Shown here: one piece after another, positions 45,560 through 56,825 of the stretch | Numbering within the stretch: position 1 is the first letter of the stretch | Layout: the number at the start of each line of letters is the position of its first letter | From: Cupriavidus necator N-1 | Lineage (GTDB): Bacteria > Pseudomonadota > Gammaproteobacteria > Burkholderiales > Burkholderiaceae | Direction: 5' to 3' | DNA: 64,000 nucleotides | NCBI RefSeq assembly: GCF_000219215.1 | Contig: NC_015727.1 | Span: 1,116,001 to 1,180,000, forward strand | The notes under the pieces: generated by a model | Seen by the model: the letters and a program-made list of their open reading frames with translations, nothing else | The model's database searches: none | Told to the model about the DNA's origin: nothing | Position numbers and translations under genes: made by a program

Positions 45560-45973
45560 GTCTCTGCGTGCCGTCCGGGTGATCGACGCCGCCACGCACA
45601 CCGGACGCTTGGGACCGTGGCGCTCTATCGTCATCTCGATCTCGGTTTGTGCGCCGCCGTCTTCGAGCGCACCGTAGGGTATTCCCATGAAGCCGCCGCG
45701 CCGGCTACCGACCGGCACCGGTGCAGGACAACGCTACTTGCCCTGGTCACGTTCGCGATCCCAGGCAGCAGGCTTAGCGTCAGGCGTCCCTGGGCGACGG
45801 TGGTGCCAAGCGCGCCGGATCTCGCGCGGCCTCCTCTGGCCGTGGATTCGTTAGTGACCCCGGTGGCGTCGGCAAACGGTGTTTAGGCGGCACTGGCCGA
45901 TGGCGACCCAGTCACCGACGCCGATGACCTCGCCCATCGGCGTTGGCTCGCGGGTTTCTTCTTTGATGTTCAT
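45560..45973 (-). pseudogene. Broken MaoC-family acyl dehydratase
   Basis: The minus strand starts MNIKEETREPTPMGEVIGVG and DWVAIGQ, then the frame changes and continues FADATGV, GTTVAQGRLTLSLLPGI, PVGSRRGG, AQTEIEMTIERHGPKRPVC and VAASITRTA. These are the ordered blocks of a MaoC/NodN-type hydratase, with the catalytic Asp-x4-His region damaged by deletions and frameshifts. Its ATG overlaps the stop of the acyl-CoA dehydrogenase upstream (ATGA), so it was once the second gene of that operon. Confidence 0.65.
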
Positions 45974-47124
45974 GCCTGTACTCGTTCGTTGTTGAGGGAA
46001 TGCTGCAACGCTTCGGCCACCAGTGATTCATGGAGGTCGGCGTTGCCGAACAGCGCATCGGCTACCACTGCGCGCTTGAAGTAATGACCGACGATATATT
46101 CATCAGTCATGCCAATACCGCCGTGCAGCTGGATGCCCTGGCCGCACACATACTTGGCCGCGCGGCCGACCAGCGACTTCGCCTGCGACACCGTGCGCTG
46201 CACGTCGTCCGGCGTGCCGGTCTCCACGGTCGCAAGCAGCGCATATAGCATCGAACGCGCCAGCTCCGTCTCGGCGGCCATGTCAGCCATGCGATGCTGC
46301 AGGACCTGGAAGCTGCCGATAGGCACGCCAAACTGCTTGCGTACCTTCAGGTACTCCGCCGTGATCTCGATCGTCTTGTCCATGGCGCTGACGAGTTCCG
46401 CACACAGCGCCGCCGTGGCCTGAAACAGACCATGCTGGAGCGCTGCCAGGCCAGTGCCGGGCTCGCCCAGCAGCGCGTCGCCTGGCACGGCGGCGATGTC
46501 AAACGTGATCTCCGCCGCCCAGGTGGCGTCATGGAGCGGCACCGCGCGGCACGTTACCCCCGGCGTGTCGGCACGGACTACGAAGAGGCGGAGTTCTCCA
46601 CCATGCATGGCAGACACGACAAAGGCGTCGGCCTCGGTGCCACCGAGCACGAGCGTCTTGGTGCCGTTTAGCACGTAACCGCCCGCTGTCGCCTCGGCGC
46701 ACGTGGCGATGGGGGCCGGCAGGCCCCGAGTTCCCGCTTCGCTGTAGGCCAGCGCCACCCGCCGCGATCCGTCTGCCAGCGCGGGTAGCAGTGCATCGCG
46801 CTGCGCGGGCGTGGCGCCGGCCAGCAACGTCTGCGCAGCGGCCACGGCACAGCCGAGGAACGGCTCGATCACGAGGCCGCGGCCGAACTGGCCCGCGATC
46901 AGCACGGTGTCGAGCAACGTGCCGCCCAGGCCGCCCTGTGCTTCGGGCAACGCGGCGGCAAGCCAGCCGTTGTTCGCGAACGTGGCCCAGTGCCGGCCAT
47001 CGCAGCGCGACCCGGACTTGACCAGCGCGGTGCGCGCCTCGAAGCCGTAGTCCTTCTCGACGAAGCGCGCCACGCTGTCCTGCAGCAGCTGCTGCTCAAA
47101 GGTAAGTTCGAAATTCATGTTCAT
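45970..47124 (-). CDS. Acyl-CoA dehydrogenase
   Basis: A 384-residue acyl-CoA dehydrogenase, with FTLEQ-like N-terminus (FELTFEQQLLQDSVARFVEK), LNGTKTLVLGGTEADAFVVS in the middle domain, YLKVRKQFGVPIGSFQVLQH and a C-terminal QLHGGIGMTDEYIVGHYFKR. The normal SEPxxGSD block is degenerate (AYSEAGTRGLP), as in small-subunit-like members of steroid-type pairs. A broken hydratase gene follows in the same operon. Confidence 0.85.
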   Translation of the reverse strand: MNMNFELTFEQQLLQDSVARFVEKDYGFEARTALVKSGSRCDGRHWATFANNGWLAAALPEAQGGLGGTLLDTVLIAGQFGRGLVIEPFLGCAVAAAQTLLAGATPAQRDALLPALADGSRRVALAYSEAGTRGLPAPIATCAEATAGGYVLNGTKTLVLGGTEADAFVVSAMHGGELRLFVVRADTPGVTCRAVPLHDATWAAEITFDIAAVPGDALLGEPGTGLAALQHGLFQATAALCAELVSAMDKTIEITAEYLKVRKQFGVPIGSFQVLQHRMADMAAETELARSMLYALLATVETGTPDDVQRTVSQAKSLVGRAAKYVCGQGIQLHGGIGMTDEYIVGHYFKRAVVADALFGNADLHESLVAEALQHSLNNERVQA

Positions 47125-47755: not shown

Positions 47756-50700
47756 TCAAGCCGCCAGCGCGCTGCCCGGTTGCGACGGCGCCAGGTCGCG
47801 CAGCCGCGCTGCAGCCCTACCCCGGCCGTTGACACCGAGCTTCACGTAGATGTTTTTGAGATGCCATTTCACCGTTTCGGGCGACACGTTGAGCACACTC
47901 GCGATCTTCTTGTTCGACATGGCCTGCGCCAGCAGCCCGAGAACCTCGCGCTCGCGCTCGCTCAGCATGGCGATGGCCCCCGCCTGCGCCGAGGTACCTG
48001 GCGGCGCAGGCGCGGCCGTTATGGCAGCCGTCAGCAAACGGCGCGCGTAGAAAGCAAGCACGGGGTCGTCGAGCCCCTCACCGATGAGTGCCGCGAACGA
48101 TGGTGCAGCACCGGCCGTCGCGTCGAGCAGCGTGCGGGTCAGCCCCGAACCATGCCCCGTCCGAAGCGCCCGCACTAATGCAGCGCGCGCACCTGCGCTA
48201 TTGCCTGCTGCATGGCGTGCCAGCGCCGTCTGCAGCCACAGTGTGGCGGACCGGGCGGGCCCTGCTTCGCTTTCCAGTATGAGCCGAGCTTCGAGGCGTG
48301 CCGCCGCGTTCGCATAGTCGTGCGTATGAAGCAACATCTCGATCCCGGCCTGTGCAGCGATGCGGGCGACATGGGCGGCTACCGTGCCGGGCTGGCCGGC
48401 GTAGCGCTGCGCAAGCTGCTGCACGCGCCGGAGCACCGCATTGGCGCGTTCGGTCTCACCGAGCTGAAGATGCCGGCTCAAACGCAGGAGCAGCGCCTCC
48501 GCCAGCAGGCGGTCGATCCGATAGCGCACGGCGTAGGCTTCGAGCCGGTCCAGGCACGCGGTGGCCTGCGCCCGCCGCCCGGTGAGCCAGTACGCCCTGG
48601 ACAGAACTGTGAACGCTCGCAGTACCACATCGGGCAGCGACACGCGCTCGAGCATTGCGATGCGCGGCTCTAGCAACTCGCATGCGCTGTCATAGTCGTT
48701 GAGCTCATAAAGGATGTCGGCCAGCAAACCGGCGGCCATGCATGTCAGTCCGAGGAAAGCGGGGCCGCGGCGCTCGGCCTCGCGCAGCACCTCGCGGGCA
48801 CTCTTGGCCGCGTGCTGGATCTCGCCCTCCATCGCCAGGCTCATCGCGGTGATATAGCGGCCAAACATGCTGCTGCGCGGCACATTGCTGCGTCGCTCGG
48901 TATCGCTTTGTAGGCGGCGCGCCTCTTTGTATTCTCCGCGCAGCAGGAAGTACCACGACAGCACGTTGCTGCGGCAGGTCCACCAGAGATCGTCTGCCTG
49001 GGGCGGGATCGCCCAGAGTTCGGGCAGCATGCCGATGATCGTGTCGATATCATCCAGCTGCACCGCGCGGCCGGCGCGAAGCAGGCAGACGACGTAGGGG
49101 TGGACGGTGTCGGTGCGGTCGCACAGCACTGCGAGCCGCTCCAGGCTCTGTTCCAGCCCGTCCACGTCGCGCATGTAGAGCCGCAGGAACGCCACCAGCG
49201 CCAGCAGGCCGAAGCGGCTCTGCACCTGGTCATCGGGCAGCCGGCGCATCAGCGTCAGCAGCTGCGTCAGGTCGCCGCTCTTGAGCAGGTCGTGCCCGCT
49301 TGATTCCACCATTGCCGCGGCGGCAGCCGCCTCGCCCGCGCGCACGGCGTGGTAGACGGCGTCGCCGAGCTGGCCGCGTCGGTCGAACCAGCTCCAGGCG
49401 GCGGCATGCAGCGCGCGCGCCTCCGTGGTGACGCAGGCAATGTCCGGATCGCCAATCCTGCCGTTATCCGCGGGCTCCAGCCTCGCCAGCAGCGTTTCTC
49501 GCAGCAGCGGATGGATCCGATACCACGCCTCGCTGTCGCCGCTGCCTACCTGGGTGATGAATTGGTTGTCGGATTCGAGCCGGGCCAGCCGCGCGGCGAT
49601 GCGCGACGGGGTATCGGTCTCGCCCGGCATTGCCGCGCACAGGTTGGCGCAGAAATGAGGGCAGACGGCCATGCGCGTGAGCATGGCGAGGTCATCCGAT
49701 GCCATCAGGCCCAGCACCTCACGCTCGAAATACGCGGCGAACATGTGCGGGTCTCTTGCACGTGCGAACGGATAGTCACCGCCCTGCCGTTTCCGCAATT
49801 CCACGGCGAAGAGCTGCAGCCCCGCCACCCAGCCATCGGTCAGCGCGTGAAGAGCCGCGGCGTCGCGCGTCGACACCGCACCGACCTGGTCATGCAGAAA
49901 GCGTGCCGACTCCTCCGGCGTAAAGCGCAGGTCGTGCATGTCGAGCTCGGTCAGCAGCCGTTGAGCGCGCAATGCCTCGAGCGCCAGGGGCAGCGCGCTG
50001 CGCGAGCTGAACGCAAGATGGAGCTTTGGCGGCGCGTAGTCGAGCAGACGCTGGAGCGCACGAAAGATGCGTGTGTCAGTGAGGTGGTGCAGATCATCGA
50101 TCATCAAAACCAACTCGCGCTCGCGCTGGTCTAGCGTCTGCACCAGCGTAATGACCCAGTGTTCGATCGCGTTATCGTCCTGGCCGGTGCCGGTCAGAGC
50201 TGCCGCGTTGCGCGCGATGGCGGGATCCGCCTCGGCCAGGCTGGCCAGCAGGCATTCGAAGAATCGTGCGGGCGCGTTGTCTTCCACGCCCAGCGCCAGC
50301 CAGCTCACGTCGAAGCCCAGTGAGATCAGCCCCTTGCGCCAGACCATCAACGCGCTTGTCTTGCCCGCGCCGGCCTGGCCTTGGATCACCACGCAGCGCT
50401 GCCGGCGCGCGTCCAGCAGCCGGCTCATCAGTCGCTCGCGCGGCAGCAGCTTGCGCACATGACGCGGCGGCAGCAGCTTTGCGCTGGCCACGGCTTCTAC
50501 CGTGCGCGGGCGGACCCGCGGCGCTGCTGGATGCGATACCAGCGAAAGGACTGGCTGTGCGGTGGCGCGCGGCGGCGGCGATGGCTGTATCGGCGCTTGG
50601 GCACGCCCGCGGCCGATCATAGGCCATGCGTGCCCTGCCGGCGCCAGGTCGGCGGCATCGACCGGCTCTACCAGGCCGACCACATCCACTTCGCAATGGG

Positions 50701-51661
50701 GGGCCGCGTCAGCCCCGCGCACCCAGTCGAACGGCCGCCGCGCTTCATGCTGTCCTACCGCCGCAAGCACCTGCGCGACGCTTGCCGGCAATCCGCCGGA
50801 CGATTCTCGCAGCAACGCCTGGACGCCGCGCAGCCAAGCGGCGTGGCCCGCCACGAAGCGCACGGTCCAGCGTTGGCCGGCCAGCACCTCCTGTACCTTG
50901 GGATGCTCGTGCGAGAGAGGGTTGTCAGCCAGAATCAGCAACTGGCGGCCAGGCGGCGCGTGCGGCGCCAGCCGGCGCAGGAAGGCCAGCCAGCCGCCGA
51001 CGCGTCCGGCATCGGAATCAGGCGCGCTAGCGGCGTCGAGCATCTTCAGCGTGGTCAGGAACGACACCCCCATCGTGCGGCGGAAAGCTGCGCTGTTGCG
51101 CTGGTTGGCTACGGCAAATGCCGGTTTGCCGGCGGGAGCGCCCGCCTCCATCGCCACGGCCACCGCATGCTCGGGCGCCGCGAGGTAGAGGCCGACGATC
51201 TCGGCGGCGTGCAGTTTATCGGCCGTGCCGGACAGTAACGCGGCAGCGGCGGTTCGATCCGGGCGGGCCGGCAGGCCGCTGGCACGCCAGTGGCGCGACA
51301 CGCAGGCCGAGCTAACGCCCAGTTCGGCGGCAAGCTGGCGCGCGCTCAGTGTTCCGGGCTCGGCATCGCGTGCCAGCGCCACGAGACGAGCGACGTCCAT
51401 CCGCACCGGCGGCGCACCGCGAGGCAGATCCCGTTCGATCCCGGCCAGCCGCGACACGGCATAGCGGTCGCGCCAGCGCGCCACCTGTACGCGCCCTACG
51501 CCGACCTCGGCCGCGATGTCCTTGTTCTGCCATCCTGCGGCAGCCAGCAGAATCATGCGCGCGCGCTGGGCGAGCCGCGCGTTTCCCGAACCTGCCGCAG
51601 CGAGCGCCTCGAGTTCTGCACGCTCGGTGTCGGTCAGCACGATGTGGCAAGCGAAACGCAT
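47756..51661 (-). CDS. IS630-type transposase fused to a MalT/LuxR-type STAND regulator
   Basis: One open frame of 1301 residues. Residues 1-135 are the two winged-helix units of IS630-family transposases (NKDIAAEVGVGRVQVARWRD; LAAELGVSSACVSRHW). Residues about 150-315 match the IS630 DDE domain, but the catalytic triad reads Glu172, Asp246 (LILADNPLSHE) and Gln281 (AAWLRGVQALL), so it should be inactive. After a linker (320-395) comes a STAND ATPase with Walker A GQAGAGKTS (428-436) and Walker B LVLMIDDLH (517-525), then helical TPR-like repeats to about 1200, and a LuxR helix-turn-helix (LSEREREVLGLLAQAMSNKK, from 1233). The last two parts match MalT/AlkS-type inducer-dependent activators. 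It lies alone inside the catabolic island and could control it. Confidence 0.85.
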   Translation of the reverse strand: MRFACHIVLTDTERAELEALAAAGSGNARLAQRARMILLAAAGWQNKDIAAEVGVGRVQVARWRDRYAVSRLAGIERDLPRGAPPVRMDVARLVALARDAEPGTLSARQLAAELGVSSACVSRHWRASGLPARPDRTAAAALLSGTADKLHAAEIVGLYLAAPEHAVAVAMEAGAPAGKPAFAVANQRNSAAFRRTMGVSFLTTLKMLDAASAPDSDAGRVGGWLAFLRRLAPHAPPGRQLLILADNPLSHEHPKVQEVLAGQRWTVRFVAGHAAWLRGVQALLRESSGGLPASVAQVLAAVGQHEARRPFDWVRGADAAPHCEVDVVGLVEPVDAADLAPAGHAWPMIGRGRAQAPIQPSPPPRATAQPVLSLVSHPAAPRVRPRTVEAVASAKLLPPRHVRKLLPRERLMSRLLDARRQRCVVIQGQAGAGKTSALMVWRKGLISLGFDVSWLALGVEDNAPARFFECLLASLAEADPAIARNAAALTGTGQDDNAIEHWVITLVQTLDQRERELVLMIDDLHHLTDTRIFRALQRLLDYAPPKLHLAFSSRSALPLALEALRAQRLLTELDMHDLRFTPEESARFLHDQVGAVSTRDAAALHALTDGWVAGLQLFAVELRKRQGGDYPFARARDPHMFAAYFEREVLGLMASDDLAMLTRMAVCPHFCANLCAAMPGETDTPSRIAARLARLESDNQFITQVGSGDSEAWYRIHPLLRETLLARLEPADNGRIGDPDIACVTTEARALHAAAWSWFDRRGQLGDAVYHAVRAGEAAAAAAMVESSGHDLLKSGDLTQLLTLMRRLPDDQVQSRFGLLALVAFLRLYMRDVDGLEQSLERLAVLCDRTDTVHPYVVCLLRAGRAVQLDDIDTIIGMLPELWAIPPQADDLWWTCRSNVLSWYFLLRGEYKEARRLQSDTERRSNVPRSSMFGRYITAMSLAMEGEIQHAAKSAREVLREAERRGPAFLGLTCMAAGLLADILYELNDYDSACELLEPRIAMLERVSLPDVVLRAFTVLSRAYWLTGRRAQATACLDRLEAYAVRYRIDRLLAEALLLRLSRHLQLGETERANAVLRRVQQLAQRYAGQPGTVAAHVARIAAQAGIEMLLHTHDYANAAARLEARLILESEAGPARSATLWLQTALARHAAGNSAGARAALVRALRTGHGSGLTRTLLDATAGAAPSFAALIGEGLDDPVLAFYARRLLTAAITAAPAPPGTSAQAGAIAMLSEREREVLGLLAQAMSNKKIASVLNVSPETVKWHLKNIYVKLGVNGRGRAAARLRDLAPSQPGSALAA

Positions 51662-52373
51662 ACGTGGTGTTCCTCCTTATTGCTGGCGGCCCGTCAGAAG
51701 TACCATCTGGCCCCGCCCCCCGTATGTCCCGTTGCTACGGCGGGCCGTACGACCCTAATATTCGTCGAAGCCTTTGGCGCAGGCACTTTTGCTGCCGGGG
51801 AAGACTACCAAGGATGCATGGCGAGCCAACCTAGCCAGAATGGCGAGCGCTGGCTCGCATAGTGATGTCTACGGAACAAAACACGGGGTCAACTCGGTAA
51901 AGGTCGTGCCGTTTTCTCGTATCCGCTGCTGAACCGCACCCAGCCATGCCCCACGTCCTCCCCCCCGCCGAAGCACTGATGGACCTGCTCCACGAGGTGC
52001 GGCAAGTCAGCCGCCAACTACAGGTAGCCGCCCGGCGCTGCACGCGCGGAATCACCTATGCCGACGCGCTGCGGGACCTGATCGACGACCGCATGCTGGG
52101 TGCCGATCGGCGCGCGCGAATCATCTGCTACGCGTCGGCGGCGGAGCTTGGCGTCCACGTTGAACTGGCTGCCGAACACGCCCGGCAGGCGATGACGGGG
52201 GGCTCGGGTTTCCGATGCGCGTGCTGTTCTGGGCCGCCTACCGACGTATGCAGTCGGGGCGGCACCGGCGGCCGGGCGCCTGGCCCCGGCCTGACTGAGA
52301 GCCGGAAGCGACAAGCGAAGACATTCACCGGTGGGCGCCTCATTGATTACACCGGCACAGGAGATACAGCCAC
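51662..52373. other. Upstream region of the regulator and of DUF2889
   Basis: About 710 bases. A plus-strand frame from ATG 51946 begins MPHVLPPAEALMDLLHEVRQ and stays plausible to about 52200, then becomes Cys/Gly/Pro-rich and overlaps the DUF2889 gene. A small hypothetical protein is possible but unsupported by a ribosome site or a known family. Promoters of the divergent regulator and the plus-strand operon should lie here. Confidence 0.3.
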
Positions 52374-52946
52374 ATGCCCCTTCCCACCCGCAAGCCCCTG
52401 CATAGGCGGCAGATCACCTGCACCGCCTACCTGCGCGACGACGGCGTGATCGACATCGAAGCAGAGTTGAAAGACGTCTCGCCCGACGGCACGCACCTGC
52501 TGTTCAAGCAGGTGCCGCCCGGCGGCGCCATCCACCATATGCACGTCTCGGTGACGGTGGACATGGACCTCGTGATCCAAGACATCACCGCCCGCATGCT
52601 GAGCGGTCCGGCCGGCAGCTGCCCCGAAGTGGAACCGGCCTACGATGCGCTGCGCGGCCTGGCGCTGCGCGCGGGCTTCCGGCGCATGGTCAAGGAGCGC
52701 GTGGGCGGCGTGAAAGGCTGCACGCACATGACCGACCTGCTTGGCCCGATGGCCACCACAGCCGTGCAGAGCCGCTTCGCGCTCGACCGTGCCCGGCGCA
52801 ATGGTCGCATGCCTGGAGATGAAGTCGGCTTCATGCCTAAGCCGGCGCTGATCGAGTCGTGCCACACCTATCGCGCGGAAAGCGCCGCCGTGAAGGTCAT
52901 CTGGCCGCCGCACCGCCGCACGCGCGACGCCGACACCCCAACCTAG
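52374..52946 (+). CDS. DUF2889 protein
   Basis: A 190-residue DUF2889 protein: KPLHRRQITCTAYLRDDGVI near the start, GPAGSCPEVEPAYDALRGLA, VKERVGGVKGCTHMTDLLGP and ESCHTYRAESAAVKVIWPPH. The conserved Cys and His residues suggest a metal or catalytic site. The family often lies beside CoA-linked catabolic genes in beta-proteobacteria, as here ahead of the thiolase-like/DUF35 pair. The function is unknown. Confidence 0.8.
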   Translation: MPLPTRKPLHRRQITCTAYLRDDGVIDIEAELKDVSPDGTHLLFKQVPPGGAIHHMHVSVTVDMDLVIQDITARMLSGPAGSCPEVEPAYDALRGLALRAGFRRMVKERVGGVKGCTHMTDLLGPMATTAVQSRFALDRARRNGRMPGDEVGFMPKPALIESCHTYRAESAAVKVIWPPHRRTRDADTPT

Positions 52947-53075
52947 GACTGCGCGCCCGCCTGAAAAGCGCTTCGCCTGCCCCGTGACAGCGCGAGCATG
53001 GCCGTGCGGGCCAGGCCCGCTCTCGTCCGCAAAACGTTTCATCCCCCGCCAACGTTTCGATTGAAGGAATCAAAC

Positions 53076-54242
53076 ATGAGCATCAAAGGCAAGGCATATG
53101 TCGTCGGTGCCTATGAACATCCGAGCCGCAAGGCACCGGACAAGTCAGTGGCCCAGCTTCACGCCGAAAGCGCCCGCGGCGCGCTCGAAGACGCCGGACT
53201 GACGCTGGCCGACGTTGATGGCTACTTCTGCGCCGGCGATGCACCCGGACTCGGCGTGCTGAACATGGTTGACTACCTCGGCCTGAAGCTGCGCCACGTC
53301 GACGCCACCGAGACCGGTGGCTCGTCGTACCTGGTGCATGTGTCGCACGCCGCGCAGGCTATTGCCATGGGCAAGTGCAACGTGGCGCTGATCACGCTGG
53401 CCGGCCGCCCACGCTCGGAGGGTTCTAGCGGCACCAAACCGCGCGCCTGGGGCGCCAACATTCCCGACTCGCCCTTCGAGTTGCCATACAGCCCGGCCAC
53501 CGTCAATTCGTATGGCATGGTCGCCATGCGCCATATGCATGAATATGGCACCACGCCCGAGCAACTGGCCTGGATCAAGGTGGCCGCGTCGCACCATGCG
53601 CAACACAACCCCCACGCCATGCTGCGCGACGTGGTGACCGTGGAAGACGTGCTGAACTCGCCGATGATCTCAGACCCGCTGCGCAAGCTCGACTGCTGCG
53701 TGGTGTCCGACGGCGGCGGCGCACTCATCGTCGCCCGCCCGGAGATCGCGGCCAAGCTGAACCGGCCGAGGATCAAGGTGCTGGGCGCGGGCGAGCATGT
53801 GAAGGGCCAGCTAGGCGGCCATGTGGACCTGACGTGGTCGGCGGCCAAGGTTTCGGGCGCCGCGGCATTCGCCGAAGCGGGCGTGGCCCCCGGGGACATC
53901 AAGTACGCATCGATCTATGACAGCTTCACGATCACCGTACTGATGCAGCTCGAAGACCTCGGCTTCTGCAAAAAAGGCGAAGGCGGCAGATTCGTCATGG
54001 ACGGCAACCTGATCTCCGGCGTTGGCAAGCTGCCGTTCAACACCGACGGGGGCGGTCTGTGCAACAACCACCCGGCCAATCGGGGCGGCATTACCAAGGT
54101 AATCGAGGCCGTGCGCCAGTTACGCGGCGAAGCGCACCCGGCCGTGCAGGTCAAGAACTGCGACCTAGCCCTGGCCCAAGGAACCGGCGGCCTGCTTGGC
54201 TCCCGCCACGGCAGCGCCACGCTGATCCTCGAACGCGAGTAG
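53076..54242 (+). CDS. Thiolase-like (SCP2/Ltp2-type) protein without nucleophilic Cys
   Basis: A 388-residue thiolase-fold protein. Compared with the classical thiolase at 35786-36964, where Cys92 sits 19 residues before CNVA, the same position here is Gly82 (ETGGSSYLVHVS...KCNVA). The C-terminal block is NTDGGGLCNNHPANRGGITK. Steroid-pathway Ltp2 proteins also lack the Cys and act as retro-aldolases together with a DUF35 partner; a DUF35 gene follows directly. An aldol-cleaving role is inferred. The ATG at 53076 is chosen over 52998; GAAGGAA precedes it. Confidence 0.85.
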   Translation: MSIKGKAYVVGAYEHPSRKAPDKSVAQLHAESARGALEDAGLTLADVDGYFCAGDAPGLGVLNMVDYLGLKLRHVDATETGGSSYLVHVSHAAQAIAMGKCNVALITLAGRPRSEGSSGTKPRAWGANIPDSPFELPYSPATVNSYGMVAMRHMHEYGTTPEQLAWIKVAASHHAQHNPHAMLRDVVTVEDVLNSPMISDPLRKLDCCVVSDGGGALIVARPEIAAKLNRPRIKVLGAGEHVKGQLGGHVDLTWSAAKVSGAAAFAEAGVAPGDIKYASIYDSFTITVLMQLEDLGFCKKGEGGRFVMDGNLISGVGKLPFNTDGGGLCNNHPANRGGITKVIEAVRQLRGEAHPAVQVKNCDLALAQGTGGLLGSRHGSATLILERE

Positions 54243-54725: not shown

Positions 54726-56825
54726 ATGACCACCCTGTCCATTCCAGATTGCCTGCTTCACCCGAATTCGGTCGCCGTGATCGGCGCTTCCGACGATCCG
54801 ATCCGCATTGGCGGCCGGCCAATAGCCTCGATGCTTGCCAAGGGCTTCGCTGGCCGCATCCTGCCGGTCAACCCGAACCGCGCTACGGTGCAGGGCCTGC
54901 CGGCCTATCCGTCGGTGGCCGCGCTTCCCGAAGTCCCGGACGTGGCGATCATCGCCGTGCCCGGCGAGCATGCGGTCACAGCGGTCCAGGCACTGGCCGA
55001 CCGCGGCACGAAGGCGGCCATCATGTTTACGGCAGGCTTTGCCGAGGTCAACGATGAAGGCGCGGCCACGCAGGCTGAGATGGTTGCCATCGCGCGCCGG
55101 GCCGGCATGCGGCTGCTCGGGCCCAACACGCTGGGCATGGTCAACATGCACAACGGCTTCGTTGGCAGCTTCTCGGGCTTTGCATCGGCGACCGGGTCAC
55201 GGCCCGGCCGCGTGGGCATCGTCAGCCAGTCCGGCGCCTATGGTAGCCATTTGGTCACGTCGGCCATGGAAGCGGGTGTATTCCCGTCCAGCGTGGTCAT
55301 GACCGGCAACGAGGCGGACCTGAACGTGGCCGATATCGTGCGCCTGTTCGCCGCGGACCCCAACACCGACGTGATTGCCGTCTACGCCGAGGGCATCAGC
55401 GACGGCCCGGGCCTGATAGAGGCATTCCGCGCGGCGCATGCCGCGCGCAAGCCCGTGGTGATGATGAAAGTGGGCCGCAGCGAAGTGGGCGGGGCCGCTG
55501 CACGTTCGCATACCGCATCGATTGCCGGTGATGACGCCGTGATTAGCGCCGTCCTCGACGAGTTGGGCGTGGTGCGGGTGCGTACCACCGAGGAAATGCT
55601 CGACATCCTGCGCCTGGCGGGGCGCCGCATCTTCCCGGCCAACAACTCGCTGGGCGTGGTGACCGTCAGCGGGGGCGCCGGCGTGATCGTCTCGGATGCC
55701 GCCGAGGAACTCGGCATCCCGATGCCCGAGATGCCAGCCGCCGCACAAGCCCGCATGCGCAAACTGCTGCCGATCTGCGCCGCACGCAATCCGGTGGACG
55801 TGACTGCCCAGTTCATCAACGACACCACGCTGGTCACGCCGTTCACGGAGTCGATGATGGCTGAAGGGGGCTACGCCACGCTGCTGGCGTTCTTCAGCTA
55901 CGCGGCGGCCGTACCGGGCGTGGCCGATTCGCTGCTGCAGCAACTGGGCGACGTGCGCAAGCGCTATCCGGATCGGCTCTACGTGCTGGTGGCCCGTGGC
56001 GATCCGACCATCCTCGCTCGCTTCGAGGAAGCCGGCTTCACGGTGTTCGGCGATCCGAGTCGCGCCGTGACCGCCATCGCCGCGATGGGCCGCTTCGGTG
56101 AGGCATTCGCAGGAAACACGTTGGCACCGGTGCCCCGGGTGACCAATGTCACGCTGCCGCGGCAGGCGCCGACCGAAGCGGAGGCGAAGGCGCTGCTGGC
56201 GAAAGCCGGCATCCCGAGCGCGCCTGAACGCGCTTGTGCCGAAATGGAGGTTGCTGTGGCGGCCGCGCGCGAGATCGGATTCCCGGTCGTGCTAAAGATC
56301 CTGTCGCCCGACATTATTCATAAGTCCGAGATTGGCGGCGTGCTGCTGAACGTGGCCAACGAAGGCGCGGTGCGTGAAGGCTTTGCGCTGCTGCTGGACC
56401 GAGCCGCCAAGGCCATGCCCGACGCACGCATCGAGGGTGTGCTCGTGGCCAAGCAGATGAACGGCGGAGTGGAGTGCATCATGGGTATCAACCGCGACCC
56501 GGTGTTCGGCCCGATCGCCATGTTCGGGCTCGGTGGTGTGTTCGTCGAGGTGCTCAAGGACGTGGTGCTCCGCCGCTGCCCGTTCGGCCCGGACGTGGCC
56601 GAACAGATGATCCGCTCGATCAAGGGCGCACCACTGCTGCTCGGTGCGCGCGGACGGCCCGTGGCGGACATTGCCGCGCTGGCCCAGGCGCTGTCGCAGT
56701 TGTCCGCATTCGCCGTTGCCGCGGGCCCGCGCCTGCAGTCGATCGACCTGAACCCGGTGCTGGCCATGCCGCACGGCCAGGGCGTCTACGCTGTGGATGC
56801 GGTGATCGAGGTGGACCCTGAGTGA
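54726..56825 (+). CDS. NDP-forming acyl-CoA synthetase
   Basis: A 699-residue acyl-CoA synthetase of the ADP/GDP-forming type with both subunits fused: CoA-binding domain (SVAVIGASDDPIRIGGRPIA), ligase-CoA domains with the phosphorylated His262 (ARSHTASIAGDD) and a C-terminal ATP-grasp domain (from about 480; FPVVLKILSPDIIHKSEIGG). It makes or uses acyl-CoA with nucleotide. It ends the operon with the thiolase-like and DUF35 genes and could recover energy from a released acyl-CoA or activate the substrate. Confidence 0.87.
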   Translation: MTTLSIPDCLLHPNSVAVIGASDDPIRIGGRPIASMLAKGFAGRILPVNPNRATVQGLPAYPSVAALPEVPDVAIIAVPGEHAVTAVQALADRGTKAAIMFTAGFAEVNDEGAATQAEMVAIARRAGMRLLGPNTLGMVNMHNGFVGSFSGFASATGSRPGRVGIVSQSGAYGSHLVTSAMEAGVFPSSVVMTGNEADLNVADIVRLFAADPNTDVIAVYAEGISDGPGLIEAFRAAHAARKPVVMMKVGRSEVGGAAARSHTASIAGDDAVISAVLDELGVVRVRTTEEMLDILRLAGRRIFPANNSLGVVTVSGGAGVIVSDAAEELGIPMPEMPAAAQARMRKLLPICAARNPVDVTAQFINDTTLVTPFTESMMAEGGYATLLAFFSYAAAVPGVADSLLQQLGDVRKRYPDRLYVLVARGDPTILARFEEAGFTVFGDPSRAVTAIAAMGRFGEAFAGNTLAPVPRVTNVTLPRQAPTEAEAKALLAKAGIPSAPERACAEMEVAVAAAREIGFPVVLKILSPDIIHKSEIGGVLLNVANEGAVREGFALLLDRAAKAMPDARIEGVLVAKQMNGGVECIMGINRDPVFGPIAMFGLGGVFVEVLKDVVLRRCPFGPDVAEQMIRSIKGAPLLLGARGRPVADIAALAQALSQLSAFAVAAGPRLQSIDLNPVLAMPHGQGVYAVDAVIEVDPE

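Follow-up and report, generated by a model that had tools for sequence, protein, structure and literature searches.

Layout of the fusion gene

The stretch analysed here, referred to as the window, comprises 64,000 nt of Cupriavidus necator N-1 and carries on its minus strand a gene in which a head derived from a transposase of the insertion sequence (IS) family IS630 is joined to a MalT-type regulator body, composed of a STAND ATPase, a tetratricopeptide repeat (TPR) region and a C-terminal LuxR-type helix-turn-helix (HTH). The gene runs from ATG to stop as one uninterrupted frame of 1301 codons. Such a single frame joining both parts had been described in the initial annotation of this DNA, and the open reading frame (ORF) as well as the profile matches bear it out. 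The features of the gene are given below, DDE denoting the Asp, Asp and Glu of the catalytic triad and the region that carries them.

47756..51661, minus strand: fusion gene, 1301 amino acids (aa), IS630-derived head and MalT-type STAND-TPR-LuxR body (ORF and profile matches)
51672..51677, minus strand: perfect Shine-Dalgarno sequence AGGAGG, 10 nt upstream of the ATG
51410..51580, minus strand: HTH1 of the head, residues 28-84, recognition helix at about 55-67 (HTH_23, 61.1 bits, cut-off 24.6)
51260..51409, minus strand: HTH2 of the head, residues 85-134, recognition helix at about 116-127 (profile, model and comparison with free IS630)
50708..51214, minus strand: eroded DDE region, residues 150-318 (alignment with free IS630)
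51146-51148, minus strand: Glu172, first DDE column
50924-50926, minus strand: Asp246, second DDE column
50819-50821, minus strand: Gln281, third DDE column
50486..50707, minus strand: variable linker, residues 319-392 (low pair identity, high ratio of nonsynonymous to synonymous rates, dN/dS)
49136..50485, minus strand: STAND ATPase and the part following it, residues 393-842 (NF003420; PDB 8bob_C)
48119..49078, minus strand: MalT-like TPR region, residues 862-1181 (PF17874 TPR_MalT, 55.1 bits, cut-off 45)
47810..47968, minus strand: C-terminal LuxR-type HTH (GerE), residues 1232-1284 (PF00196, 70.3 bits, cut-off 23.5)

The descent of the head is evident from its alignment with free IS630 proteins of 361 aa, to which residues 1-319 showed 41-42% identity at 99% coverage among the best 120 of 2128 matches; the top two of these 120, P0038 and P0039, are apparently fragments of fused genes. 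The NCBIfam model of IS630 transposases (NF033545) matched residues 32-277 of the window protein with an E-value of 3.6e-16 and 59.5 bits, the curated cut-off being 100. The window head alone reached 61.6 bits and stayed below this cut-off as well, while the heads of two relatives, L064 and L065, scored 111 and 120. The Pfam HTH_23 match spanned residues 28-74, and in a fold comparison of the head the first five rows aligned with residues 24-135 only. Of the whole IS630 architecture proposed in the initial annotation the HTHs and the DDE region can be aligned, whereas the variable linker stands in place of the final ~45 residues of the 361-aa enzyme. Likewise, the two DNA-binding HTHs are present as proposed, and it is their label as winged helices that has to be corrected, since the pair resembles, in the fold comparison, the paired type known from Mos1, SETMAR and Pax.

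In the body, the NCBIfam MalT model NF003420 matched residues 393-842 (E 2.6e-67, below the equivalog cut-off of 537), and MalT itself (PDB 8bob_C) could be aligned with residues 394-815 (E 4.8e-21). A P-loop (GQAGAGKT) and a Walker B motif (LVLMIDD) were recognized by eye in the STAND ATPase, and the P-loop residues A430, G431, G433, K434 and T435 are invariant across 29 fused proteins. With ATPase, TPR region and C-terminal LuxR-type HTH the window protein would, by its sequence, be counted among the MalT/LAL STAND-LuxR regulators. No SARP model was found for it among the Pfam matches listed (25 of 35), its N-terminal part aligning with IS630 instead. An assignment as anti-phage STAND defence protein was considered and rejected, because the PADLOC matches of the fused proteins P0001 and P0021 were only HTH-sized.

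Loss of the catalytic triad and conservation of the HTH pair

In all 31 free IS630 proteins examined D, D and E are present. The positions named for the window head in the initial annotation (Glu172, Asp246, Gln281) turned out to be exact in the alignment with these proteins, and the substitution of the catalytic Glu extends to all fused heads with DDE fold that were examined. Among a first set of 38 fused heads three had no DDE fold, and the other 35 carried Gln (32), His (2) or Arg (1) at the third position; among eight newer heads one was without the fold and the remaining seven all carried Gln. For the heads with DDE fold taken together, a count which includes two near-identical pairs (P0001/P0002 and P0013/L061), none of the 42 carried the third-site Glu, 38 carried the second Asp and six the first.

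A comparison by region revealed where the head has been retained. Compared with 29 free IS630 proteins, the window head showed a mean identity of 79% in HTH1, 57% in HTH2 and 29% in the DDE region, whereas the free proteins among themselves share 82, 85 and 89%. The order of conservation is thus inverted, the DDE region being the best-kept part of the enzyme and the worst-kept part of the regulator. Between window and free proteins the two recognition helices show 84 and 77% identity, compared to 87 and 83% among the free proteins. The four clusters of fused proteins without DDE fold retain both HTHs (P0034, P0035, P0165) or HTH1 only (P0037). The model of the window head had a mean predicted local distance difference test score (pLDDT) of 73.8, with 92-96 for residues 31-70. 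The idea that the DDE core has been rebuilt in the window head was considered on the basis of this model and discarded, since a free IS630 protein modelled as control had a mean pLDDT of only 57.7 and showed helices and strands in a matching arrangement, so that the models do not decide. In the search for terminal inverted repeats (TIRs) flanking the window gene no upstream relic was found, and more diverged ends would escape this search. Measured against an active IS630 transposase, the window head lacks the triad and the NF033545 score, shows no TIRs within the reach of this search, and has kept the two HTHs.

Selection on the regions was analyzed as dN/dS for 11 pairs of fused genes, three of which (window/L056, window/L057 and L056/L057) were too close; the other eight share members, and some are near saturation. 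In all eight of these pairs dN/dS was lower for the HTHs than for the DDE part, i.e. purifying selection is stronger on the HTHs. The values for HTH, DDE part, linker and ATPase, in this order, were 0.05, 0.19, 0.19 and 0.05 for L058/L059, 0.12, 0.18, 0.87 and 0.14 for L061/L063, 0.14, 0.31, 0.55 and 0.16 for L064/L065, and 0.09, 0.27, 0.51 and 0.21 for window/L059. The linker shows a mean pair identity of 0.12 across the 29 fused proteins and a dN/dS of 0.5-0.9 in three of these four cleaner pairs. Taken together with the catalytic Glu being found in none of the 42 heads, the conserved HTHs under purifying selection argue for the earlier suggestion that cutting has probably been lost while the DNA-binding parts stay intact.

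Distribution, descent and genomic setting of the family

The fusion is not confined to the window. Database searches yielded 44 further protein clusters, 36 from a first search (head within a long protein) and eight new ones among the 41 of a second, with lengths of 870-1339 aa; HTH_23 was present in all 44 and the LuxR-type HTH in 42, the two clusters without it (P0004 and P0027) being short. Among 60 genomes of the genus at least 14 full-length fusions were found in nine; furthermore, in G020 and G055 the head has no DDE fold, and in G042 a copy is cut by the contig end. A set of 299 genomes of the family added at least two fusions in two other genera, while the only match at E 1e-290 in 399 genomes of the order was the window's own genome. 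These per-genome counts are lower bounds, as at most two candidates (family and order sets) or 11 candidates (genus set) were scored per genome. Named loci belong to Cupriavidus, Caballeronia concitans, Paraburkholderia sacchari and 'Burkholderiaceae bacterium 16'. The fusion thus occurs in further Burkholderiales, where the initial annotation had advised to look, and its recurrence in many proteins, loci and genomes speaks against an assembly error. Some fused regulators (P0021, P0023, P0028, P0158) are labelled 'IS630 family transposase' in public databases, a label which conceals regulators. In Cupriavidus lacunae two fused genes (L066 and L067, apparently P0019 and P0028, members of different clades) lie on one contig and point away from a common coenzyme A (CoA) island. 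The fused gene L083 of Cupriavidus sp. UYMMa02A has a broken frame, and its neighbour genes are broken too, perhaps by sequencing error.

A tree of 35 fused heads and 31 free IS630 proteins placed the fused heads in one group (support 100), and a tree of the HTHs only did the same for all 46 heads, including those without DDE fold (support 84, on just 137 columns). In smaller body trees (34, then 42 fused proteins against 25 unfused ones), which left out the four unfused rows L040, L042, L074 and L078, all fused proteins lay on one side (support 99). The full body tree, a quick tree of 66 head-bearing and 29 unfused rows in which several rows are the same gene from two sources, contained 64 head-bearing rows as a pure group (support 97). 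Furthermore, the distances of head and body correlated with 0.93 across 31 fused proteins, a value reached by 0 of 2000 permutations. A single fusion is called into question by P0037 and P0165, both without DDE fold, which join the unfused L074 in the full body tree (support 98), and by a test that rejected the 66 head-bearing rows as one clade excluding L074 (p 0.02, with long branches); this placement requires either a head loss in L074 or a second capture. L074 is an unfused protein of Variovorax sp. J22P168, which perhaps lost its head, and no head remnant was detected within 2 kb upstream of it. On the trees, one fusion with later duplications, DDE erosion in some lines and head loss in L074 would be the simplest history, not a proved one, and a second head capture would be the alternative. 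The functional reading developed below is independent of this question, and its probability is therefore unchanged by the impure body group.

The surroundings of the fusion gene comprise the following features.

51662..51945, no strand: candidate control region, the spacer that separates the fusion gene from the divergently oriented conserved frame next to it (IS-end relic looked for, none found)
51946..52449, plus strand: small frame, conserved but matching no Pfam model, oriented divergently to the fusion gene (reading frame disturbed in the window)
52374..52946, plus strand: DUF2889 gene, divergent neighbour (PF11136, E 7.6e-42; synteny)
52998..54242, plus strand: thiolase-like gene of the divergent group (profile and synteny)
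54726..56825, plus strand: NDP-forming acyl-CoA synthetase-like gene of the divergent group (profile and synteny)
45970..47124, minus strand: acyl-CoA dehydrogenase gene, downstream of the fusion gene (profile)

As in the window, 9 of 17 flanked fused loci carry DUF2889, thiolase and NDP-forming synthetase genes divergently across the promoter region, five of these nine with extra gene content separating DUF2889 from the fusion gene. L064, L067, L065 and L073, which belong to another clade, have a divergent hydratase-dehydrogenase pair instead. An acyl-CoA dehydrogenase relative is nearby in all 17 loci, a figure that stands without a background rate for random Cupriavidus loci; two of the 17 (L056 and L057) are the window's own locus in close strains. 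From this synteny, control of a CoA-thioester catabolic island by the fusion regulator may be inferred. Unfused relatives are likewise located in CoA islands, so that regulation of the island is likely the task of the body, to which the head has been added. One unfused paralogue of the body lies in the same island as the fusion gene (G000:C4:1182888-1185635), ~3 kb past the window and ~15 kb from that gene. In the related loci inspected, the small frame at 51946-52449 separates the fusion gene from DUF2889; it is disturbed in the window and in L057 and intact in L056, a 99% relative.

In the IS630 subgroup closest to the heads the elements have 32-bp ends of the type CTAGTGTAGTGTTGCATTCTTGATGGAACTTA, and the left end starts 75-85 nt upstream of the start codon. 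Tens of copies of a cognate IS630 are present on plasmids of Cupriavidus necator UYPR2.512 (L092-L127), where the right end encodes the end of the transposase and a TAG stop, seen by eye, lies within the terminal CTAG.

Upstream of the fusion genes a 41-bp block is firmly conserved in one clade (21 rows, support 97), where it was found in all five distinct loci with DNA: L064, L065 and L068 (each at -86), L073 (-91) and L067 (-114). The pair identity per 10 nt was 0.52-0.96 inside the block and 0.24-0.48 outside. As a prediction test the unused clade member P0158 (Cupriavidus sp. KK10 replicon) was inspected, and the block was present at -93 with a score of 47.6, compared to at most 13.0 in shuffled 64 kb controls. 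Without gaps, block and IS left end agree at 16-20 of 34 positions. At -90 to -81, comparison with 10 IS left ends gave mean matches (of 36) of 18.1 for L064, 18.3 for L065 and 16.4 for L068, with 99.9% of 2000 random stretches at or below 16.7. L061, a member of another clade, stood out in this position test with its best match of 16.3 at -88. For 12 of 16 genes, the window's included, the best IS-end match lies elsewhere, and that of L067 lies in its block at -114. An IS-end matrix was also applied to the 300 nt preceding each of the 16 genes; most loci, the window among them, scored as random, and only L064, L065 and L068 stood out; being of one clade, these three are not independent. A strict sigma-70 scan found no promoter within the block, and above noise no second block sites were seen in the examined loci except self-overlaps.

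These comparisons make it likely, not certain, that the block descends from an IS left end and has been retained to serve the fusion gene as its promoter or operator. Several results argue against such a descent or limit its reach. At least one of the 2000 random stretches reached 18.3, the maximum observed; the window promoter holds no IS-end relic; 750 nt upstream of 15 fusion genes there were no more shared 9-mers than in shuffles; and the block may be just a promoter. A role as regulon-wide operator was rejected, since at up to three mismatches the block occurs only in front of the fusion gene itself, with one site each in 5 of 13 genomes and none in the other eight, the window's included.

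Interpretation, rival explanations and known systems

We consider it fairly probable, on the evidence of sequence comparison, that a domesticated, cutting-dead IS630 transposase serves as second DNA-binding head of a STAND-LuxR regulator of the island. An IS630 element would have landed directly upstream of a malT-like STAND-LuxR gene, the two frames would have fused, the catalytic site would have been lost and the two paired-type HTHs retained. The resulting protein would be an ATP-dependent STAND regulator, probably an activator, of the CoA-thioester catabolic island, whose TPR body would sense a metabolite and whose C-terminal LuxR-type HTH, once activated, would bind MalT-like operators. 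The transposase head would supply a second sequence-specific grip on DNA, anchoring the regulator to the promoter of its own gene or to the island, possibly via a site that derives from the IS left end. The sequences themselves show the fusion and its conservation, the single head group, the lost triad, the selection on the HTHs, the synteny and, in one clade, the conserved block upstream; that the head binds DNA, that a signal is sensed and that the protein activates and autoregulates is what we infer here. The domestication supposed in the initial annotation gains support from the dead triad, the guarded HTHs, the single head group, the almost pure body group and the islands of CoA enzymes. 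The looping of DNA by a two-headed regulator, also proposed there, is a guess that goes further than the evidence.

Weighing against a function of the head in DNA binding, dN was equal to or larger than dS in the head of the pair window/L057, on few changes; a value from so close a pair speaks neither for nor against constraint. Moreover, unfused close paralogues with intact frames exist in the genome of the window itself, and hence the head is not needed for such a regulator.

The best surviving alternative, which we regard as unlikely, holds that the head does not bind DNA and acts as a module for oligomerisation, autoinhibition or contact with a protein partner. A precedent by analogy would be the integrated domains of plant BED-NLR proteins, BED being transposase-derived. 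BED-NLR proteins are named in the consulted part of PMC7761493. Such a module would account for some purifying selection on a DDE region without triad (dN/dS 0.18-0.31 in the four cleaner pairs) and for the second Asp retained in 38 of 42 heads. Against it stand the recognition helices, the conservation of which roughly equals that seen among free IS630, and four clusters that shed the DDE fold yet retain HTH1, three of them both HTHs.

Quite improbable appears a second alternative, in which the fused protein would restrain resident IS630 elements in trans by occupying their ends with its dead head. The recognition helices do match those of the IS630 subgroup, and at up to three mismatches 5 of the 13 genomes searched hold cognate ends, G020 having a single match with three mismatches. 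However, the genome of the window and seven others have no cognate end at this threshold, though all 13 possess a head-bearing gene, and the 17 loci looked at are catabolic islands. The finding of old element ends, which the initial annotation had proposed for the head, is for the same reason unlikely to be its work in this genome.

With still greater reserve we view the head as a functionless read-through, i.e. an IS remnant translated ahead of a normal MalT-like regulator. The unfused paralogues in the same kind of island and a linker that drifts almost freely in most pairs would fit this explanation, but the open frame has been maintained in tens of divergent members, the HTH dN/dS of 0.05-0.14 in three clean pairs is as low as that of the ATPase, and the HTHs persist where the DDE fold was deleted. 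Finally, that the true start lies near residue 390 and the upstream frame is untranslated is scarcely credible: in unfused paralogues no more than a few tens of residues do precede the ATPase, but the only candidate starts at residues 330-400 (ATG 348 and GTG 391) have no Shine-Dalgarno match, whereas M1 has a perfect one, M1 and R2 are almost invariant across the 29 fused proteins, and selection at the codon level extends across the head.

The reading as a second DNA-binding head can be carried further, and this we do tentatively, expecting the extension to fail rather sooner than to hold: the transposase would have been captured together with its own binding site, the fused regulator would still recognize DNA resembling IS630 ends, the IS left end ahead of the gene would have become its operator, and the fusion would have spread by duplication across many CoA-catabolic islands. 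If true, protein and DNA site would have been recruited ready-made and in a single step, as a bacterial SETMAR. With a whole family, probably of one origin, with dead triad and guarded HTHs, the finding is stronger than could be known from the window alone. The family is old enough for triad loss in every member examined, HTH retention, many paralogues, spread over three genera and a possible IS-end relic. It permits a direct test of the transition from transposase to transcription factor, for which free IS630 of the same subgroup persist in sister genomes as controls. These free proteins of the 361-aa subgroup have the same HTHs and an alignable DDE region but differ from the fused heads by their intact D, D and E, their TIRs and their stand-alone form.

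According to the portions of the literature at hand, host regulators fused to DDE transposases have been described in animals and plants. For bacteria, no fusion of an IS630 or other DDE transposase with a regulator was found in the open-licence papers searched (preprints lying outside this scope), in keeping with the initial annotation, which knew of no described case; in the available part of a review on recruited mobile elements in prokaryotes IS630 and DDE are mentioned 0 times (PMC8987985). Compared with MalT/LAL regulators, residues 393-1301 contain the same MalT-like ATPase, TPR_MalT and GerE, whereas a 392-residue head is added in front, and unfused paralogues, which start a few tens of residues upstream of the ATPase, occur in the same genome. 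STAND regulators with an N-terminal DNA-binding domain are represented by the SARP-LAL regulators and AfsR, of which PimR (SARP-LAL) has no C-terminal LuxR-type HTH, as far as the consulted section of PMC5930380 goes. In SARP-LAL proteins the N-terminal domain is SARP, whereas here it is transposase-derived and the C-terminal HTH is retained. TldR proteins descend from TnpB and have lost the nuclease. They are transposon-derived proteins turned bacterial regulators, in this case RNA-guided transcription factors (excerpt of PMC13418256), and differ from the present family in this guidance, in not being DDE transposases and in having no STAND fusion.

The nearest parallel in design is SETMAR (Metnase), the human Hsmar1 transposase fused to a SET domain (PMC9062482, in the portion available), of which the family described here is, by analogy, probably a bacterial counterpart. 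As in SETMAR, the DNA-binding domain of the transposase is kept and the catalytic triad altered. Binding to ancestral ends as in SETMAR is matched here by just a probable relic site in one clade. In contrast to SETMAR, the family has an independent bacterial origin, a STAND-LuxR partner, many paralogues and, in the genome of the window, no cognate TIRs.

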